Shown here in pieces: positions 19,771 to 62,200 of a stretch of DNA of 64,000 nt. Made by a program: the position numbers and the translations under genes. Source of the DNA: Hypericum androsaemum. Its lineage: Eukaryota > Streptophyta > Magnoliopsida > Malpighiales > Hypericaceae. Location of the stretch: contig OZ023182.1 of NCBI GenBank assembly GCA_963995505.1, positions 201,001-265,000 of the forward strand. Reading direction: 5' to 3'. The notes under the pieces were generated by a model. It ran no database searches, had not been told where the DNA came from, and worked only from the letters and a program-made list of their open reading frames with translations. Each line of letters starts with the position of its first letter. The first letter of the stretch is position 1.

Positions 19771-21242
19771 AGTGGACCCCGGGACCGAAAGGGGGCACTT
19801 TCGGCTTTTATACCCTGGTTCGGGTGCTATACAATGGGTCTCAGAGCTCATGACGGAAGATGGCAGTGACTAGAAGGTGCGATTACTGAACATGCTTTTT
19901 AGGGAGGAGAATATAGGCGAATCACAACTATTCGGATAAGTGCGAGGAGTCTGGCTGACATTTTGAGATGGCGTCACTTCGCGGATGGGTGCTATACAAT
20001 AAAGAGTGGTTATAGAGCATATTTCAGTATGTGGTGGGGAAGCTCTAAGTGGGTGGATACTTCCTGTTATGACAGTGCTTTATTACGGAAGTGTTGGTCC
20101 CATTTGTGTCCACCTAGGATTCAGACGGTGCTTTGGCGCATACTGGACAATAACCTGCCACTTTGTAATAATCTAAGGAGGCGGGGGATGGATGTCAAAG
20201 AGCATTGCCCGTGTTATGGGGAGTCGGCGAAGACGACAATGCATTTGTTCTTTAATTGCAGGTGGTCAAGGACTATTTGGAACAGGATGGGTGCCTCACT
20301 ACTAAGTGGAACTTTTGAACAGGTTGAGGATGCTTGCCTCAATGTAGATGGAGATTTTTGGGAGAACGATATGGGTCAGGTTGGGGTGGTCATTCGGAAT
20401 GCGAGAGGGTAGTTTGTGGTGGCATCTTCCAGGTTAGTTCCTCAGGTACAATATCCTACTTTATTGGAAGCTATTAGTGTTTGTGGAGGTTTGCAAACAA
20501 AGGCATCAATGGGATTGAGGAGGGTGACGATCGAGACAGATTGCCTACCAGTTGTCTAGGCGATGCAGCGGAGAGGGATGGAGAGGTCAGACCTTGTGCT
20601 CGTGATTGACAAATGTCGCCAGTTCGAGGTGCTCTTTATGGAGGTCAGGTTCAATTTTGTTCGGAGGAAAGGTAATATGGCAGCTCATCTTATGGCAAAG
20701 TGATAGATTACAGAACAAGTAAGTGGGCTGCTTCTTTTTTCTCTGCCAGATGACATTTGTATGGTTATTTAAGAAGAGCAGGCAAAGGCGAGAGGGGGGC
20801 TTGTGTGACGATAGGTTGGGGCTTTCAGGGGTGGGTCTTTTTGGGGCTACTTTGTTGGGATGGTTGTACAAGGGTGCAGTATGTGAGAATCAATATGTCG
20901 TGCTATCTCTAGAGCAGATTTTTATCGTGAAGTGCTCTTTTCCTTGTCCAGTTTTTTCCGGTGGGGGGCAGATTTTCTGGATAGGTTTTTGACAAGGCAG
21001 GCGACTGCAACCTTGTACTATGTAGTGCAGGATAGATTTAGGAGGTTAGTGTCCTCGCACTGCCGTGTGGTGTAGCTTCTTTGTAGGGCCAAGTGGAGGA
21101 TGGTGAAACTAGGTGGGTAATAGTTTCCTCTTGCTATTGTGCGTTGAAGCTATAGATTTGACCAATAGATATTTTGTATGCGTACCTTTGGATGTAACTG
21201 GTGACTATATGATTAATGAAGTACATTTTTATCCGAAAAAAA
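19771..21242 (+). mobile_element. 5'-truncated L1-type LINE with 13-bp target duplication
   Basis: The 13-bp repeat TTAATATGTATAT lies at 19758-19770 and 21243-21255, immediately outside the element. The 3' end is a short A-rich tail after TACATTTTTATCCG. The open frame 19963-20412 encodes the reverse-transcriptase zinc-binding domain (zf-RVT), seen in CWSHLCPPRIQTVLWRIL and in the Cys/His cluster CPCYGESAKTTMHLFFNC. It runs into a plant RNase-H-like domain (LNVDGDFWENDMGQVGVVIR) that continues past a stop at 20410-20412 to about 20703. Only the 3' part of the second LINE protein is present. It is degenerate and immobile. Confidence 0.86.
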
Positions 21243-21370
21243 TTAATATGTATATGTATTCAAATTCGGTATAACAAATTTCAATTCGATAAAGAGGGCT
21301 AAAAAGTAATTAGGGCCAATCAGGCCTTACAAAGCCCATATAGATAAATCCTGATTGCACTCCCAACATT

Positions 21371-21420
21371 AATGGGCCCAGACGATTTGGTCTCAAAATT
21401 TCATTACCAAAGAACCCTAA
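21371..21420 (+). promoter_or_regulatory. Site II (TGGGCC) and telo-box of RPL18
   Basis: TGGGCC occurs at about 21373-21378 and AACCCTAA at 21413-21420, 120-165 bp upstream of the RPL18 ATG. A second telo-box-like AAACCCTA lies at about 21496-21503 in the leader. This pairing is the established promoter signature of plant ribosomal-protein and other growth-linked genes (TCP and telo-box binding factors). The same pairing precedes the snoRNA cluster near 58.5 kb. Confidence 0.75.
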
Positions 21421-21536
21421 AGGCCCAGCTCAAGAGCCTCCACAAGTATAAATTCTTCTGCTCAAAGACCTACCTTCTTCATTGCCGTCGTCAAGAAACC
21501 CTAGAGAGGCCGTTTCTGTCCGGACCCGACGAAGCC

Positions 21537-23087
21537 ATGGTTGGCCTCTTCTCTTCCTCGTATTCTTTCTACATCCATTTCCAGGAAACAAAATGCTTCA
21601 TCTTTAAACTATTTTGCTTTGTTTTGGTTGGGGGTTTGAACAGGGGATTGATTTGAAAGCGGGAGGAAAGAGCAAGAAGACGAAGAGGACTGCCCCCAAG
21701 TCCCAGGATGTCTACCTCAAGCTCCTCGTCAAGGTAAATTGGTTCCTTTTTTGTCTTCTCTCTTTTTTTTTTTTGTATTTTAGGAGAGAATAAATCAATA
21801 TTGTTTTGGGGCTATTGCTTGTAGCTATACCGGTTTCTTGTAAGGAGGACTGAGAGCAAATTCAACGCTGTCGTGTTGAAGAGGCTCTTTATGAGCAAGG
21901 TCAACAAGGCCCCTCTCTCCCTCTCCAGGCTTATCTCCTATGTGAAGGGCAAGGTACCAACCAACCTCCTTCCACTTGTTTGTTTACTAGAGGCTTCGAA
22001 AGATTCTGTTAGTGTAAGGTGATTCTGTTAGTAGGAATCCAGAGGGAACGCGATGTTGACACTCTGTCTGATGACTCTTTGATGTAGGAGGACAAGATTG
22101 CTGTGCTTGTCGGGACTGTAACCGATGATATTAGGGTTTATGATGTGCCAGCCATCAAGATTGCTGCTTTGCGCTTCACTGAGACTGCTAGGGCAAGGAT
22201 TGAGAAGGCGGGTGGAGAGTGCTTGACCTTTGATCAGCTCGCTGTCAGAGCTCCCCTTGGCCAGAATACGGTAGGGTTCCATTTTATGATTGCTGCCCTT
22301 TTAATTCTGTATGAGTCGGAGTGAATTTTGTTCTAGTTTGGTTGGGGATGTAATGTGGAAAGCAGTGATGAGCCTTACAGACCTGTAATGATCTGCGGTT
22401 ATGATTGCAAATCTTTTGAACATCTAAGGGACTGAGCTTATTACTCCCCTCTATATCCTTCACTTCCAATTGAGGTTTTTTCTCTTGCATGGTGCTTCAC
22501 CCTTTTTCTGTTTTGGCGAGGATTCACACTTTTTGAGGCTGTGATGAGCCTTCCAAACCCGTAATAATTTCTTGTTCATGATCACAAATCTTTTTAACAA
22601 CCAAAGGACCTGAACTTGTTACCTCCTGCTGATAAACCTTTGGAATCATTGATGTCCTTTTGAATTCCATCTATTTTCCCTCTTGTTCAGCTGTAGTATT
22701 CTACAATATTCCTGCACCTCCTTGAAGAGATTCCTTTAAGATGTTCTGAATTATGACAATGTTTTTTGTTTCCCAAGCTGTTAATGGTCATTTATGTTCT
22801 GTGCTTGATTGTTTTGGTCTTTTTTAAAAAAATTGACTAGACAATGTTTGGTTTTCAAACATACCAATATATACTTGTTCCTCTGGAACAATGTTTCTGA
22901 TCGATGTCTTGCGCCTTTTTGATTGCAGGTTCTACTGAGAGGACCAAAGAATGCACGTGAGGCTGTTAAGCATTTTGGACCTGCTCCTGGTGTGCCACAC
23001 AGCCACACTAAGCCTTATGTGCGTTCGAAGGGACGCAAGTTTGAGAGGGCCCGTGGTAGGAGAAACTCCAGGGGCTTCAGGGTCTAA
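21537..23087 (+). CDS. RPL18: 60S ribosomal protein L18 (eL18)
   Basis: Five exons: 21537-21539 (the ATG alone), 21644-21733, 21825-21953, 22088-22270 and 22929-23087. They join in frame to exactly 187 residues, the usual eL18 length. The first intron falls directly after the start codon (donor GTTGGC), and the next exon reads [20 protein letters not shown]. Further signatures are [40 protein letters not shown] and the basic end [11 protein letters not shown]. eL18 is a structural protein of the large ribosomal subunit, imported to the nucleolus for assembly. Intron 4 (22271-22928) is unusually long and hosts two box C/D snoRNA candidates, so splicing of this transcript would also supply snoRNAs. 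Promoter motifs fit ribosomal-protein control. Confidence 0.98.
22360..22439 (+). ncRNA. Intronic box C/D snoRNA candidate 1 in RPL18
   Basis: Box C GTGATGA (22365-22371) and box D CTGA (22432-22435) are flanked by a terminal stem AAGC/GCTT (22360-22363 with 22436-22439), giving an 80-nt RNA. Upstream of box D, GAACATCTAAGGG (22418-22430) is the complement of CCCTTAGATGTTC in plant 18S rRNA as I remember it. ACAGACCTGT (22377-22386) complements the nearby 18S ACAGGTCTGT. Both matches fall in the same 18S neighbourhood. The likely role is guiding 2'-O-methylation of 18S in the nucleolus. The position inside a ribosomal-protein intron is a normal snoRNA location in plants. rRNA matches are from memory and need alignment. 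Confidence 0.82.
22536..22620 (+). ncRNA. Intronic box C/D snoRNA candidate 2 in RPL18 (paralogue)
   Basis: Box C GTGATGA (22541-22547) and box D CTGA (22610-22613) with 62 nt between them. The body is clearly related to candidate 1: TGATGAGCCTT after box C, then a run of ACAAATCTTTTT, ACA, and CAAAGGAC before box D. The guide before box D has diverged and I cannot assign a target. The terminal stem is poor. It is either a second guide with a new target or a decaying tandem copy. Confidence 0.6.
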
Positions 23088-48600: not shown

Positions 48601-49343
48601 TCAGGAATTGAACCGTCAATCTTTATCAAATTGTAAATGCCAGACTAAATGTTCTTTGGCAAAAATCGGAAAAGAGAGGAGTGCAACACGAGAACTTTTC
48701 GTGAGTCAACCATCTTAGTACTACTCTTACCCAAACACATTTAATTTTGCAGTTCTGATGAGATCCGGTACATTAGCCCTAGTACAATCGCACTTAATTT
48801 CTTCTTTCATATCGATAAATATAGATAGATATAGAATCTGGGGCACAATTCCTTAGGAATCTATTTTGGTGCAAGAGCCCTTCCTACCCGATAGAAACGA
48901 TCACAGGTTTCTCAACCAATCTTACACGAAGGTCACAAACTCCAAGTTTGTCTATGAAAAGAAGATCAAATTATATTAGTATGAGAATTCGGAGTAAAGT
49001 TGAAAGTTCTTACCTCAAACGGGAAAAAGTGAGTCAAAATTTAAGATTGTCGAAAGCGTTAACAAACACGACAAGACAATTAAATGGGTCATCAACTTGC
49101 TTATAAAAAAAAAGGGTCATCAACTAGCACAGACTTGTTCAAATCTAATTAGAAGTTTACAAGTTCTGAGTACGAAACCTGCAACCTTGCAAGTTTCAAC
49201 TGCGTTGAAACACAGGGTTTTGCCACCTTTTAATTCTAAGGCAACTCGAACTCAGATTAGTTTATCCTGATAGATATTCACAAACTGGATGATTTTGAAA
49301 AGAAAAAAAAAAGTGAAGGGATGAAAGCAAAAGGTATGTTAAA
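45607..49343. other. Intergenic, 3.7 kb, nothing recognised
   Basis: AT-rich DNA without recognisable genes. A 19-bp unit TTATCTAGGGATCCTTTTA is repeated in tandem at about 46270-46308. No transposon ends were identified. Confidence 0.5.
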
Positions 49344-56269: not shown

Positions 56270-57110
56270 ATTGTTGAGATCACTCCTAATTGCAAATGTG
56301 GTAAGAGGAATGCGTTGCTGATCTTGTTCGCCTTCTTACCTCCTTCTCGGGGGTCTCGAGTGGAGCGGATAGACTGAAGTGGCTGCCCAATTGTTCGGAT
56401 GGGTTCTCTGTCTCAATTTGCAGGTTTCTCCATGTCGCATCCGGGCATTATCCAGCCAAAGCTATTCAAGTTAATACCCTCCTCCAAAGTGGCTTGTTTT
56501 CTTTGGTTGGCGCTTCAAGACCGCATCAAAATGAAGGACAACCTGCGTCGCATCCGGGCCATTGATCAGAACGACTTCCTCTGTGTAACAAAGAGACCGA
56601 GTCACCTCTGTCCATTTATTATTGCATTGTGAGTTTGCTGCATCAATCTGGAACTTCTTTTGTTGTTAAGCTGCTCGGCCTCGTGTGGTGTGTGGGTGGG
56701 TCTTTCCGTGGATTCTTGGATAGTTGGCTTGGGCTGGTGCGTGGTGGCACCTTGAAAAAGGCGTGGCTCAGCCTTTTCGCTGCCGGATGCTGGACAATTT
56801 GAAAGGCTCGCAACAGGGTTGTCTTCGACCATGTGGAGATAACGTCAGGCCATCTCCTTAATTCGGTTTCGCGCTCTGGATGCACTGGTCAGGGCTACAC
56901 CTGGAACTCCATCAGCAAGACGTTTTCCTCAAGCTTCGAAGCGTTATCACGGAGGGACTCCGTTTTTCCGCCTTGGGCTCTCTCATGTCTTTATTGCGGG
57001 GTGTTCTGTTGTACCTCGTGTTTTCCATGTCTGGGAATTGCTGCAGTTGTTAGCTCGGGATGTCCTTCGGACCCTAAGGTGTTTTCTGGTGAATTAAATC
57101 GCAGCTAGCT
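56270..57110 (+). mobile_element. Degenerate LINE fragment with zf-RVT remnant
   Basis: Translation at about 56480-56585 gives SSKVACFLWLALQDRIKMKD followed by NLRRIRA, the start of the reverse-transcriptase zinc-binding domain common in plant L1 elements. Further downstream text is compatible with the rest of the domain but in shifted frames. No target duplication or A tail was found, so borders are approximate. Confidence 0.55.
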
Positions 57111-57209
57111 CATCATCTATACCAGATTACATGGTAATAGTACAGCATTTTTTATGCTTTCATTGTCACTTTTAATGTCGGTTCTTTTCACCTTCAAAAG
57201 TTTGATGAT

Positions 57210-57302
57210 CTTCACTCAGGGGTCTCTTTCGTTTCGGAGTTTCAAGGATAAATTATGCACACTCCGACAGAGAGCCCTTCCCTGGATTTCATCAATTCAA
57301 GT
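57210..57302 (-). ncRNA. Weak box C/D snoRNA candidate at the 3' side of the cluster
   Basis: Minus strand TTGATGA (57289-57295) resembles box C with a non-consensus first base, and CTGA (57216-57219) could be box D. The terminal stem is poor and no rRNA target was recognised. It is listed because it lies on the same strand downstream of the clear snoRNAs. Confidence 0.25.
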
Positions 57303-57688
57303 TTTCCAAGGAAATTGATTACTATACTGTGCAAACTATTTCAACTTGTGCTCATAAAATAGCCATGTCTCAGAATTTCGTTTCTTCTGGCAATCGTCAT
57401 ACCATATATTATCTTCTCTGTTATTGAGCCAAACATAATATGATACAGCAGAAGACAAATCTTTTGCTACTTATCGTTGGAAGTCAGCTTAAGTCCCCTC
57501 ATAAATAAGATAAGGAAAGCCACAGAAATTAGGAATCCACAAAGCTAACCCGAAACATATCGAAAATTAAAAGAATGAACTGCCGTCCGTGAAATCAATA
57601 GTTCAAGAAAACCCAAAACAGTTCAATTGAACCATTAGGAATCCACAAACGTGGATATCAGCTTGACTATAAAAAATAGTGAATTTGA

Positions 57689-57797
57689 GGATGTAGAAGG
57701 CTCAGATAATTGTATGAACAATTTTATTCCCTGACCTCACAGGTGAGGTCTCATAGAGCTGGGTAAAATTATATTATCATCACTGCCACATACATCC
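57689..57797 (-). ncRNA. Box C/D snoRNA candidate A2 (25S-directed)
   Basis: Box C GTGATGA (57777-57783), box D CTGA (57702-57705). The terminal stem is long: GGATGTA pairs with TACATCC, then GGC with GCC next to the boxes (57785-57797 with 57689-57701). The conserved internal stretch ACCCAGCTC (complement at 57756-57764) pairs with GAGCUGGGU near the 3' end of 25S rRNA as I remember it. It is a paralogue of A1 upstream, sharing TATGAGACC and GGTCAGGGAAT. The likely role is 2'-O-methylation guidance in the nucleolus. Confidence 0.83.
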
Positions 57798-57877
57798 CAT
57801 CCCAAGGATAAAATTCAAACCAGTTAAAAAGCTCAAAATATAAGAAAATCAAGAGAATAAGAAGAGTGGTGAGCAAT

Positions 57878-57968
57878 TTGTTCCCTCAGGAGAAAGAAAG
57901 AATATGTTGAATCAATCAGGTAATTGTTCAGTATTAGCATGGATATAAAAACATCATCAGGAACCCCC
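57878..57968 (-). ncRNA. Box C/D snoRNA candidate B2 (18S-directed)
   Basis: Box C is CTGATGA (57954-57960) and box D CTGA (57886-57889), with terminal stem GTTC/GAAC outside the boxes. An internal CTGA (57928-57931) serves as D', directly preceded by CCATGCTAAT, the complement of ATTAGCATGG in plant 18S rRNA (from memory). It is a paralogue of B1, with which it shares CATGCTAAT and TGATTGATTCAA. Confidence 0.8.
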
Positions 57969-58074
57969 CACTCAAAACAATTCCAAGGCAATCAAAAGGA
58001 ATTAGGCTATCTGCAAATAACCCAGTTCTAAGAAACAAACAATTTATTAATAGGAAATAAAAGTTTTGCAGAAA

Positions 58075-58166
58075 GGGTTCCCTCAGTTTGAATACACAAA
58101 ACTTGAATCAATCATGAATAATCAGAAATACATTAGCATGATCATTTTAAAACATCACAGGGACCC
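58075..58166 (-). ncRNA. Box C/D snoRNA candidate B1 (18S-directed)
   Basis: Box C is GTGATGT (58152-58158, one mismatch to consensus), box D CTGA (58083-58086). Terminal stem GGGTCCC pairs with GGGAACCC with one bulge. D' CTGA (58122-58125) is preceded by a guide whose complement ATACATTAGCATG (58128-58140) is, to my memory, identical to plant 18S rRNA just before GGATAACATCATAGG. Under the five-nucleotide rule an adenosine in that segment would be methylated. Compare yeast snR53-type guides, an association from memory. Confidence 0.83.
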
Positions 58167-58216
58167 CCACAACCAATCTCAAATCTAAGAACACAAATAA
58201 TAGACAAATAAAGGAT

Positions 58217-58315
58217 GCAAAAGGCTCAGATAAATGTTGGAAAAAGTTCAATTCCCTGACCCCAGGGGTCTCATAATGAGCTGGGATAATAACATTTTCA
58301 TCATAGCGGCTTTAA
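58217..58315 (-). ncRNA. Box C/D snoRNA candidate A1 (25S-directed), first in the cluster
   Basis: Perfect box C ATGATGA (58298-58304) and box D CTGA (58226-58229). CCCAGCTCA (complement at 58277-58285) pairs with UGAGCUGGG of 25S rRNA, the same site as A2 but shifted by one base. The terminal stem is weaker than in A2 (AAAG/CTTT at a distance). It lies directly downstream of the telo-box promoter. Confidence 0.8.
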
Positions 58316-58404
58316 CGAGTTCAACGCTAATTGTAAAAAGGAAAGTAAGAGAAACCTCCATAAACAGAGTCGCCGATGGTAGTAAGGGAACGCGATGGTA
58401 GTGA

Positions 58405-58426
58405 GGGAGAGAGTAGGGTTTTTGGT

Positions 58427-58481
<55 letters not shown>

Positions 58482-58614
58482 GTGTGGCGTATTAGGGTTT
58501 TATTGACTGCCTTTGTGTTCCGGTTTAATTAACACACGGGGCCTGTGATGCGTTCCAGGCCTATGTTGAAGATATTAGGCCCAATTGTCTTTTAGACTCC
58601 CGATGTTAGGCCCA
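58405..58614 (-). promoter_or_regulatory. Telo-box/site II promoter of the snoRNA cluster with TA/GA microsatellite
   Basis: On the minus strand: TGGGCC at 58609-58614 and 58578-58583, telo-box AAACCCTAAT at 58491-58500, a GA/CT run (58462-58482) adjoining a TA run (about 58430-58462) that could act as a TATA region, and a second telo-box-like AACCCTA at 58414-58420. This order of site II then telo-box is the known arrangement for plant ribosomal-protein genes and polycistronic snoRNA genes. The microsatellite sits where the core promoter should be, so its length could vary promoter strength. Confidence 0.72.
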
Positions 58615-58619
58615 ATTTT

Positions 58620-59230
58620 ACGTTTGGATAAAATAGGGCCTCTTTCTTCGAATTTGAAGTGAATGATGTCCGATCTGAAATGATAAGTAAATTTTTGTTG
58701 TCCGATCAGAACTCTGATCACGAATAACTACTCTTTGGTTAACATATATATTCTTTTGATAAGTCTTTGGTTAACATATAGATAGTTATTGTAGTTTAAT
58801 TTAAAAATTAATTAATTTCGGTCTATTACAAATACAGAAGACATTTGTCATCTTTCAAGAATCTTATTCGACTTAAAACTGCTCAAGTAATGAATGTTCG
58901 AAGGTATGAACAAAAAAAATGAATGGCGTTAATGTATAGAAATTTATGATACTAGTTCTTGCATCAAATAATAATCGAGAGTTAAGATTAAGTTGAATTC
59001 ATCAAGTTCTTTCTCAAATTAAAGAGTGTGAAGAGTTCCTTCTTTGGCCACAAGTATAGTAGATAAAAGGCTTTTTTTTTTGTCAAGAAGGAGGGGCTAA
59101 AGGCGCTCCTAGCAAATATTTTATCTAATCATCGAAAGAAGTTACAACCGATCTCGGAAGCGAGATGTCATTAATGTCCCTTAACAAAAGGCGACTAATG
59201 TGGATAAAAGGCATTGATCATGAGAAAAAA
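58620..59230. other. Intergenic, nothing recognised
   Basis: AT-rich DNA between the snoRNA promoter and the terminal Copia element. A T-rich patch near 59071-59080 is followed by GTCAAGAAGGAGGGGCTAAA, possibly an old LINE or SINE tail, too short to classify. Confidence 0.4.
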
Positions 59231-59239
59231 AATGGTGCA

Positions 59240-62200
59240 AATTGTCTAGTTTGGTGAGATTGAGCTAGAATAATGATAGCTTAAAAGAAAGATTCAAAAA
59301 GGAAGAACTCAGAGAAAAGAGAGAGGATGGCGAGGAAAGGGTTGCCTCATTTTCATTAATCTTTTCTCTGTACTTCTTAATCAAAATCGCCACACTATTC
59401 AATGTTATATATACAAAAATATATACTAGCAGCTGGGTGTATAGGGAATATTCTCTGACACTGATTTCGAGGGAGATTTCCGTTGTGACAGATTGGCCAG
59501 CTGTGGACCAATTGTTATTTGTCACCTGGTAGTGGATTTGTTAGAGAATTCAGCTGACGTGGCCGATGTAATATTCCTCTTGTCTTCTGATGGGCTTGTG
59601 CCACTAGTTCAGGCCAAATGGGCTTTGTTATTGTTACTCCTTTGTAATCCATCTTTAACTTGGAAGCTCAAGTCTGGAGAAGAAGAAGCAGAAATGGCGG
59701 GATCAACTATTCTCAACACACCCCCACAAGCTGGAAGGTGAATGTTCACCATTCCAAGCTTGGACATCAGAAATTCATGGCGAGTGGCAAGCAAGGGCTT
59801 CGTGAAGATGTCGGCAACTTGGGTCTCAGTAGACACATGGAAAAGCTTCAGGAAGCCAGAGCGAATTTTATCACGAACCGAATGACAATCAATCTCAATA
59901 TGCTTAGTCCGTTCGTGAAAAACGGGATTCTCAGCAATGTGGATGGCTGATTGACTGTCACAAAAAACGAGACAAGGTCCAGACGGTGGAAGGAGAAGAT
60001 CATGAAGCAAATAAGATACCCATTTCAACTCACGACCAATCGAGGAAAGTGCTCAATATTCTGCTTCAGATGAGGAGTGAGAGACCGTGTCTTGTTTCTT
60101 ACATCGCCAAGAGACGAGTGAATCCCCCAAGAAGATGCCAAAACCAGTGATAGATCGTCGGGTGTCGAGGCAATTGCCATGGTTGCTATCACAGAAACCT
60201 TTCAACTGGCAATCTGGTGAAGCGGAGAAATGTAAACCAAAACCAGGGGTACCTTTAAGATAGCGTAAGACCCGATAGGCGGCTTTCATATGGAGATCAG
60301 TGGGATTCGCCATGAACTGGCTGAGTTGTTGGACAGCAAAACAAATGTCCGGACGAGTTGTGGTGAGGTACAGGAGCCGACCAACAAGTTGTTTGTAAGT
60401 GAAAGAAGTAACTGGTTCATCAAGAGAAATGCAGAAGTCGTCATCATCTTGTGCAAGTAGGGGATTATCATCAAGAGGGGTTCCCAACTCGGAAGATAAT
60501 GGACTGTTCACTTCCATGGGCGTTGAAATAGGTTTGCAGCTAAGATAACCTGTATCTTTTAGAATTTCAAGCAAGTATTTCTTTTGGCTGATGTGAAGAC
60601 CATCCTGTCGACGAGCAACTTCAAGCCCCAGAAAATACTTTAAATCGCCCAAATCTTTAAGCTTGAACAGCTGGTGAAGAGCAACTTTGATCTTGGCAAG
60701 AGCCTGGAGATCATTACCGCACAATATAATATCATCGACATAAACAAGTAGAGCCACGAAAGAAGAGCCAGTGAGTCTGGTAAAGAGTGAATGGTCAGAT
60801 GGAGATTGAACAAAACCATGCGCCAGGAGAGAGGTCGTAAGCTTGGCAAACCATTGCCGGTTGCTTGCTTCAACCCATAGAGAGAACGACTGAGCTTACA
60901 GACCTTGCCATGATCTGCAGAAGAAAGAAATAGGCCAGGAGGTGGAAGCATGTAAACCTCCTCAACCAAATCACCATTGAGGAATGCGTTGTTGACATCA
61001 AGTTGTTGTAAATACCAGTTTTTCTTCGCAGCAATTGCAAGCAATAAGCACACTGTGGTTAATTTGGCCACGGGTGAAAAAGTATCAAGAAAATCCACAC
61101 CATAGGCTTGTGTGTAGCCCTTGGCAACTAAACGAGCCTTATAGCGTTCAATAGAGCCATCAGAGAGATATTTGATCTTATAAACCCACTTGCATCCAAT
61201 AGGTTGCTTACCAGGAGGGAGATCAACTAGGGACCAAGTATTGTTCTGAGCAAGAGCTTGAAGTTCTTCATTCATGGCATGTATCCAATGTGTATGGTGA
61301 ACAGCTTCCTTGTAATTCTTAGGTTCATGAGACTAAAGAAGCTTGATAGAAAACACGCGGTGTGCAGTAGACAAATTATATAAACCAAAGTAGGAAGAAA
61401 GTGGATAAAGTGCGGACCTGCCATTAGATGGAGAATGATCAGTAAGGCCAGTTATAGTACCACAGATATAATCTGAAAAGTACTTTGGAGGCTGGCGGGC
61501 TCTTTGGTTGCGATGCCGAATTGCTTCAGAAGGTGGAGAGGAGTCCACAGAACTTGGCAACGAAGGTAGAGGGCTAGGCGTAGGGGAAGAGTTGGTGGGG
61601 CAAAATGGGATGGTGTTTGGATAGTCTAGATCATCTGTAAGTGGTGAGGTAAGTGGGAGAACAAGTTGGTCAGGAGAATATGGCTGATACAGGTCTGGTG
61701 AGTAGAGATGATGGTTCTGAAATGGGTAGATATCTTCATGAAATATTACATCACGAGAAACAATAAGTTGATGAGTAGTAAGATTGTAAAGTTTATAACC
61801 TTTAACTCCAAAGGGATAGCCAAGGAAGACATAGGGTTGGCTACGAGGGTCAAATTTCAATCGTCCTACAGCCACTGTCGCAGCATAGCAGAGGGAACCA
61901 AACACTCTTAAGTGTGCTAATGAAGGAGGTTTGTGGTATAACAACTCAAAGGGCGTCTTATATCCTAGTATAGAGGATGGTGTTCTATTAATCAAGTAAG
62001 CAGCGTGTAGAATCGAATCACTCCAAAAGACTAGGGGTAAGTGAGCAATGTATCAGTAATGACCTAGCAACATTCAAAAGATGTTGATGCTTTTGTTCTA
62101 CGCGTCCGTTCTGCTGTGGGCTATAACGACAAGATGTCTCATGTATAATTCCCTTATCATGGTAAAATCCTCTCAAAAAGAATTCACTACCCTGGTCTGT

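Follow-up and report, generated by a model that had tools for sequence, protein, structure and literature searches.

In the 64,000-nucleotide window (the whole stretch of DNA analysed here), an Rfam search at curated gathering thresholds returned five RNA matches, three of which fall inside the interval from 57689 to 58614. Together with a separate search of 2.4 kb around that interval and with the positions of the conserved boxes, they mark out four box C/D snoRNA units on the minus strand, occupying 57692 to 58314 (623 bases). In the order of transcription the units run 69Ya, 53Ya, 53Yb, 69Yb (units 1, 2, 3, and 4, respectively), separated by spacers of approximately 50, 110, and 90 bases. 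The units and their D' boxes are as follows:

58218 to 58314, minus strand: unit 1 (69Ya), a snoR69Y-type box C/D unit (Rfam 67.9 bits, gathering threshold 45)
58271 to 58274, minus strand: D' box of unit 1, AUGA, with 2 extra bases ahead of it
58076 to 58165, minus strand: unit 2 (53Ya), a snoR53Y-type unit (41.1 bits, gathering threshold 43; E value 1.1e-5 in the 2.4-kb search)
58122 to 58125, minus strand: D' box of unit 2, CUGA, with 5 extra bases ahead of it
57879 to 57964, minus strand: unit 3 (53Yb), snoR53Y (Rfam 56.6 bits, gathering threshold 43)
57928 to 57931, minus strand: D' box of unit 3, CUGA, in the register of the family
57692 to 57790, minus strand: unit 4 (69Yb), snoR69Y (Rfam 63.8 bits, gathering threshold 45)
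57751 to 57754, minus strand: D' box of unit 4, AUGA, in the register of the family

Three of the four units lie above the gathering threshold, with unit 1 obtaining the highest score of the four, and unit 2 falls 1.9 bits short of the threshold for snoR53Y. All four have a box D reading CUGA and a UGAUG core; the full box C consensus RUGAUGA is present in units 1 and 4, and the corresponding sequence reads CUGAUGA (or, one base further along, GAUGAUG) in unit 3 and GUGAUGU in unit 2. D' boxes are assignable in all four units, as CUGA in both snoR53Y copies and as AUGA in both snoR69Y copies. Three units have terminal stems that fold well; that of unit 1 (58314 to 58218) is weak, its joined arms reaching only −3.7 kcal/mol, compared with −7.3, −13.7, and −15.4 kcal/mol for the other three. 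No open reading frame of at least 60 amino acids overlaps the region from 57109 to 59264, and Rfam applied to 57000 to 59400 reveals no fifth unit: apart from weak overlapping matches, the other matches there lie over the known units or have E values of at least 2. A de novo scan of the 64 kb (requiring a box C, a CUGA, a stem of at least four pairs, and a 10-base rRNA match) gave eight candidates, of which the three with an rRNA 10-mer represent only units 2 and 3, since one of the two appears twice; the scan missed the SNORD25 gene described below as well as units 1 and 4, whose inner stems fall short of its minimum.

The initial annotation, made from the letters alone, had described four minus-strand box C/D units within 630 bp, and the Rfam matches and boxes bear this out, with the reservation that unit 2 sits slightly below gathering; the Rfam C/D search that it had suggested as a check did yield matches, three of them above gathering. 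Its reading of the locus as free of any protein-coding frame agrees with the open reading frame survey, and its terminal stems are good in three units, that of unit 1 being weak. It had seen clear D' boxes in two units; these are present, and the count should be raised to four.

Upstream of unit 1, at distances of 100 to 300 bases, lie the elements of a promoter of the type described for plant polycistronic snoRNA genes in PMC4660826:

58414 to 58421, minus strand: telo-box AAACCCTA, identified by motif match
58427 to 58462, no strand assigned: (TA)n run between the telo-boxes, with a putative TATA role
58492 to 58500, minus strand: overlapping telo-boxes AACCCTAA/AAACCCTA, identified by motif match
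58578 to 58583 and 58609 to 58614, minus strand: two Site II elements (TGGGCC), the motif as defined in PMC4660826

The (TA)n run could serve as a TATA box, a pattern that any such microsatellite fits trivially. To gauge how unusual the remaining motifs are, we counted them in 1274 windows of 346 bases taken at 50-base steps, merging overlapping telo-boxes. At least one telo-box and at least one Site II element occur together in 43 of the 1274 windows, so single motifs are common. The combination of at least two of each is found in only seven, which fall in two places, each upstream of snoRNAs: windows starting at 58301 to 58401 lie directly upstream of the cluster, and those starting at 21201 to 21351 lie approximately 0.9 to 1 kb upstream of the SNORD25 at 22359. 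None of 300 shuffles of 58315 to 58660 reached this combination. The two TGGGCC sites and telo-boxes that had been reported ahead of the units are confirmed on the minus strand.

To assess the targets of the units, we compared them with non-plant eukaryotic rRNA from contaminant contigs: two SSU loci (L008 and L009), found with a longer pattern in genome contigs and confirmed by Rfam as eukaryotic SSU, and one locus carrying the end of the LSU (L010), found with an LSU pattern, in which bases 1 to 361 correspond to the final part of the eukaryotic LSU model and the 5' end is cut off. The pattern ACATTAGCATGGRATAA, tried on viral contigs as a source of rRNA, was dropped after Rfam matched none of its seven loci, and Rfam likewise matched none of the six viral loci obtained with a 16-base U6 pattern. 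Searches of the L008 SSU sequence against phages and of the cluster against plasmids gave no match.

Against this non-plant rRNA, all four units contain a guide that pairs over 16, 11, 10, or 9 bp and ends 0 to 1 nt ahead of the D' box. Taking the predicted methylated nucleotide to be the rRNA base lying opposite the fifth guide nucleotide upstream of D' (the D+5 rule), the 11-bp duplex of 53Yb would place the modification on the bracketed A of ACAUU[A]GCAUGG in the non-plant SSU, and the 16-bp duplex of 53Ya (14 Watson-Crick pairs) on the A of GAAU[A]CAUUAGC in the same molecule. In the non-plant LSU, the 9-bp duplex of 69Yb points to the C of GUGAG[C]UGGGU and the 10-bp duplex of 69Ya (9 Watson-Crick pairs) to the A of CGUG[A]GCUGGG. 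The earlier statement that the guides match 18S and 25S therefore holds against non-plant eukaryotic rRNA, and pairing of at least 10 nt, the length that the initial annotation had set as a check for the real rRNA, is present here in three of the four units, the fourth having 9 nt. Among the five best pairings per target, there are also matches of 9 to 14 bases between units and rRNA that lie away from the D boxes, many of them with G-U pairs; pairing length alone consequently proves little, and it is the position before D', together with the family context, that carries the argument.

Two further pairings deserve mention. In unit 2 (58076 to 58165, minus strand), a second stretch just ahead of box D is complementary to this 18S region as well, with 10 paired bases in the L008 sequence; its D+5 point is not known as a methylation site, and we do not claim it as a second guide, the stretch representing either chance or extra pairing. 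For unit 3, a U6 target is suggested by a weak match to snoU6-53 (26.1 bits, gathering threshold 36), and Table 3 of PMC8053127 assigns U6 A48 as well to SnoR53Y in Arabidopsis; by analogy, unit 3 perhaps guides the equivalent of U6 A48 too.

The two members of each pair differ in guide register. Relative to the Rfam consensus, the sequence right before D' is extended by an insert of 5 bases in 53Ya and of 2 bases in 69Ya, and 53Yb and 69Yb have none there; 53Yb accordingly keeps the SnoR53Y guide register and 53Ya is in another. With these inserts, the predicted methylation point moves by exactly 5 and 2 positions toward the 5' end of the rRNA in the 53 and 69 pairs, respectively, and the inserted bases themselves join the duplex, which lengthens from 11 to 16 bp in the 53 pair and from 9 to 10 bp in the 69 pair. 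Table 1 of PMC8053127 assigns Arabidopsis 18S A801 to SnoR53Y and A796 to SnoR25, and 25S C2949 to SnoR69Y and A2947 to U29. The spacings within these doublets, 5 and 2, equal the observed shifts. In that table, the 10 nt on either side of A801 contain no other site than A796, and those around C2949 none but A2947; given a single listed alternative in each neighborhood, we crudely put the chance that two arbitrary shifts would both hit listed sites at approximately 1 in 400. The Arabidopsis numbers used for our units rest on family identity and spacing rather than on alignment with Arabidopsis rRNA. Judged by their guides, the units would likely act on four distinct ribosomal nucleotides rather than two, all four of them known sites. 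The predicted target of unit 1 precedes the snoR69Y site by 2 nt, the same offset as that of A2947 from C2949, in a comparison made through the site spacing rather than through a U29 or plant rRNA sequence. This position, together with the existence in rice of a snoR53Y-U29a-U29b cluster, suggests that 69Ya is probably plant U29 recognized under the model of another family, and 53Ya is probably a guide for the equivalent of 18S A796.

Sequence comparison identifies the units as paralogues within each pair. The alignment of 69Ya with 69Yb scores 93 (shuffle mean 20.5, maximum 40) and that of 53Ya with 53Yb scores 66 (shuffle mean 26.5, maximum 48), values reached by none of 500 shuffles in either case, and the four cross-pair alignments are unremarkable, being reached by 19, 78, 188, and 240 of 500 shuffles. 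Likeness between 69Ya and 69Yb covers most of both units, beyond guide and boxes, and a repeat search recovers a 61-base stretch at 74% identity that extends slightly beyond the end of the 69 pair. The 60-base flanks are no more alike within pairs than expected by chance (99, 194, 274, and 331 of 500 shuffles equal them), which points either to an old duplication or to copying of the units alone. The order 69-53-53-69 does not fit one simple tandem duplication.

Taken as a whole, the cluster most likely represents a polycistronic box C/D snoRNA gene of the standard plant kind. The proposal of a polycistronic cluster with a ribosomal-type promoter is supported by the Rfam matches, the rRNA pairing, and the promoter motifs, from which we infer that the four units are co-transcribed from one promoter, expressed as snoRNAs, and loaded with fibrillarin. 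Such clusters are described as routine in plants (PMC8053127, PMC4660826), and the initial annotation placed its emphasis wrongly in this respect, overlooking the duplicated pairs with their different D' registers. We consider it likely that the locus is a four-unit gene of the plant polycistronic type that holds two guide families, each duplicated and found in two D' registers, and whose predicted 2'-O-methylation targets are four neighboring rRNA nucleotides. Under this model, RNA polymerase II would produce one precursor from the telo-box/Site II promoter, and processing of the precursor would release four snoRNAs, each loading fibrillarin. Under the D+5 rule, and in Arabidopsis numbers, unit 3 would then act on 18S A801, unit 2 on A796, unit 4 on 25S C2949, and unit 1 on A2947. 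Both pairs would have been born by duplication, with small inserts in one copy of each pair sliding the point of methylation by 5 and 2 positions, in each case to a nearby site that is likewise methylated in plants.

A stronger version of this proposal, which we advance tentatively and regard as possible rather than probable, is that the gene is a guide-retargeting array: inserts of rRNA-complementary bases would have slid methylation by 5 and 2 nt, a single transcript would cover the doublets 18S A796/A801 and 25S A2947/C2949, and the shifted snoR53Y copy would have lost the U6 target of its parent. A chance only a little short of even goes to the view that no recent retargeting took place: both shifted units would be ancient, unit 1 being plant U29 and unit 2 a guide for A796 (SnoR25 or a related RNA), with the likeness within pairs reflecting old common descent or guides that face the same stretch of rRNA. 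The dissimilar flanks are consistent with such antiquity, as is the rice snoR53Y-U29a-U29b cluster of PMC5122169, where the guides keep the same company; in Neurospora, moreover, PMC2780460 gives CD27 as the RNA for both of the corresponding 26S sites and CD11 as that for the snR53 site. The extent of the 69Ya/69Yb likeness beyond guide and boxes argues the other way. Nothing decisive stands against ancient guides, a reading that differs from our preferred model of a four-unit gene with shifted registers in date and not in mechanism. Counting against that preferred model is the report in PMC5122169 of U29a and U29b only in monocots; PMC8053127, despite this report, also assigns U29 in Arabidopsis.

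The shifted copies could instead both be decaying, since unit 2 lies below gathering with a box C of GUGAUGU and unit 1 has the weakest terminal stem of the four. On this account, units 1 and 2 would be redundant copies with functionless inserts and only units 3 and 4 would be working guides. A worn SNORD25-like copy at 22534 to 22619 (21.9 bits) demonstrates that worn copies do exist in the window. We nevertheless hold decay to be improbable: it is the shifted copies that own the longer rRNA duplexes of their pairs, each shift lands on a nucleotide listed as methylated in Arabidopsis in PMC8053127, and unit 1 scores best of all four units. Still more remote is an arrangement in which the units are intronic in a host gene rather than forming an independent gene. 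Some plant snoRNAs do sit in introns of ribosomal-protein genes, as PMC4660826 describes, and yet the empty reading-frame survey around the cluster and the promoter elements upstream of unit 1 make this very improbable here.

Comparison with known systems places the preferred model, a gene of duplicated guides in different registers, in context. With the plant telo-box/Site II polycistronic snoRNA genes described in PMC4660826, the cluster shares several same-strand box C/D units, short spacers, the lack of a reading frame, and both motifs upstream; it differs in consisting of two paralogous pairs in different D' registers. Rice cluster 58 (snoR53Y-U29a-U29b), which we compared through its description in PMC5122169 rather than by sequence, similarly sets snoR53Y beside a guide for the U29 site, but the cluster studied here additionally contains a snoR69Y whose register is the usual one, along with another snoR53Y that is shifted. 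Units 1, 3, and 4 pass the curated scores of the Rfam families RF01198 (snoR69Y) and RF01279 (snoR53Y), with which the guide cores and boxes agree, whereas the stretch before D' is longer by 2 bases in unit 1 and by 5 in unit 2. In Neurospora crassa, CD27 serves the same two LSU sites according to PMC2780460, Am2904 and Cm2906 being the counterparts of the U29 and snoR69Y sites; one RNA is listed there for both, whereas here two paralogues would split the work. A literature search, with supplements outside its scope, found no account of the register-shifted pairing, which may well be in print.

Plainly taken, the locus is one more snoRNA gene overlooked by protein-centred gene finders. If the register shifts are functional, it would show in nature, and within a small space, how a family of guide RNAs acquires a new site of methylation, by a route in which a unit is duplicated, a few rRNA-pairing bases are inserted, and the D+5 rule shifts the mark. 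Because the gene holds two such cases, independent of each other and each arriving at a known site, this step becomes testable by tracing the inserts in related plants.

Elsewhere in the window, SNORD25 is found at 22359 to 22441 on the plus strand (62.2 bits, gathering threshold 39). The worn second SNORD25-like copy mentioned above lies on the same strand and below gathering, and a telo-box/Site II group is located upstream of SNORD25, at approximately 21333 to 21503; these three features probably constitute a second snoRNA gene of the window. A lone match to 5S rRNA at 48678 to 48795 on the minus strand (53.1 bits, gathering threshold 38) has many non-standard pairs and may be a pseudogene of 5S or a repeat derived from it. 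Finally, broken frames of a retrotransposon polyprotein lie upstream of the cluster, at 59609 to 61995 on the minus strand, and two of the three such frames tested match Pfam RVT_2 (154.3 and 62.3 bits), a domain typical of Ty1/copia elements.
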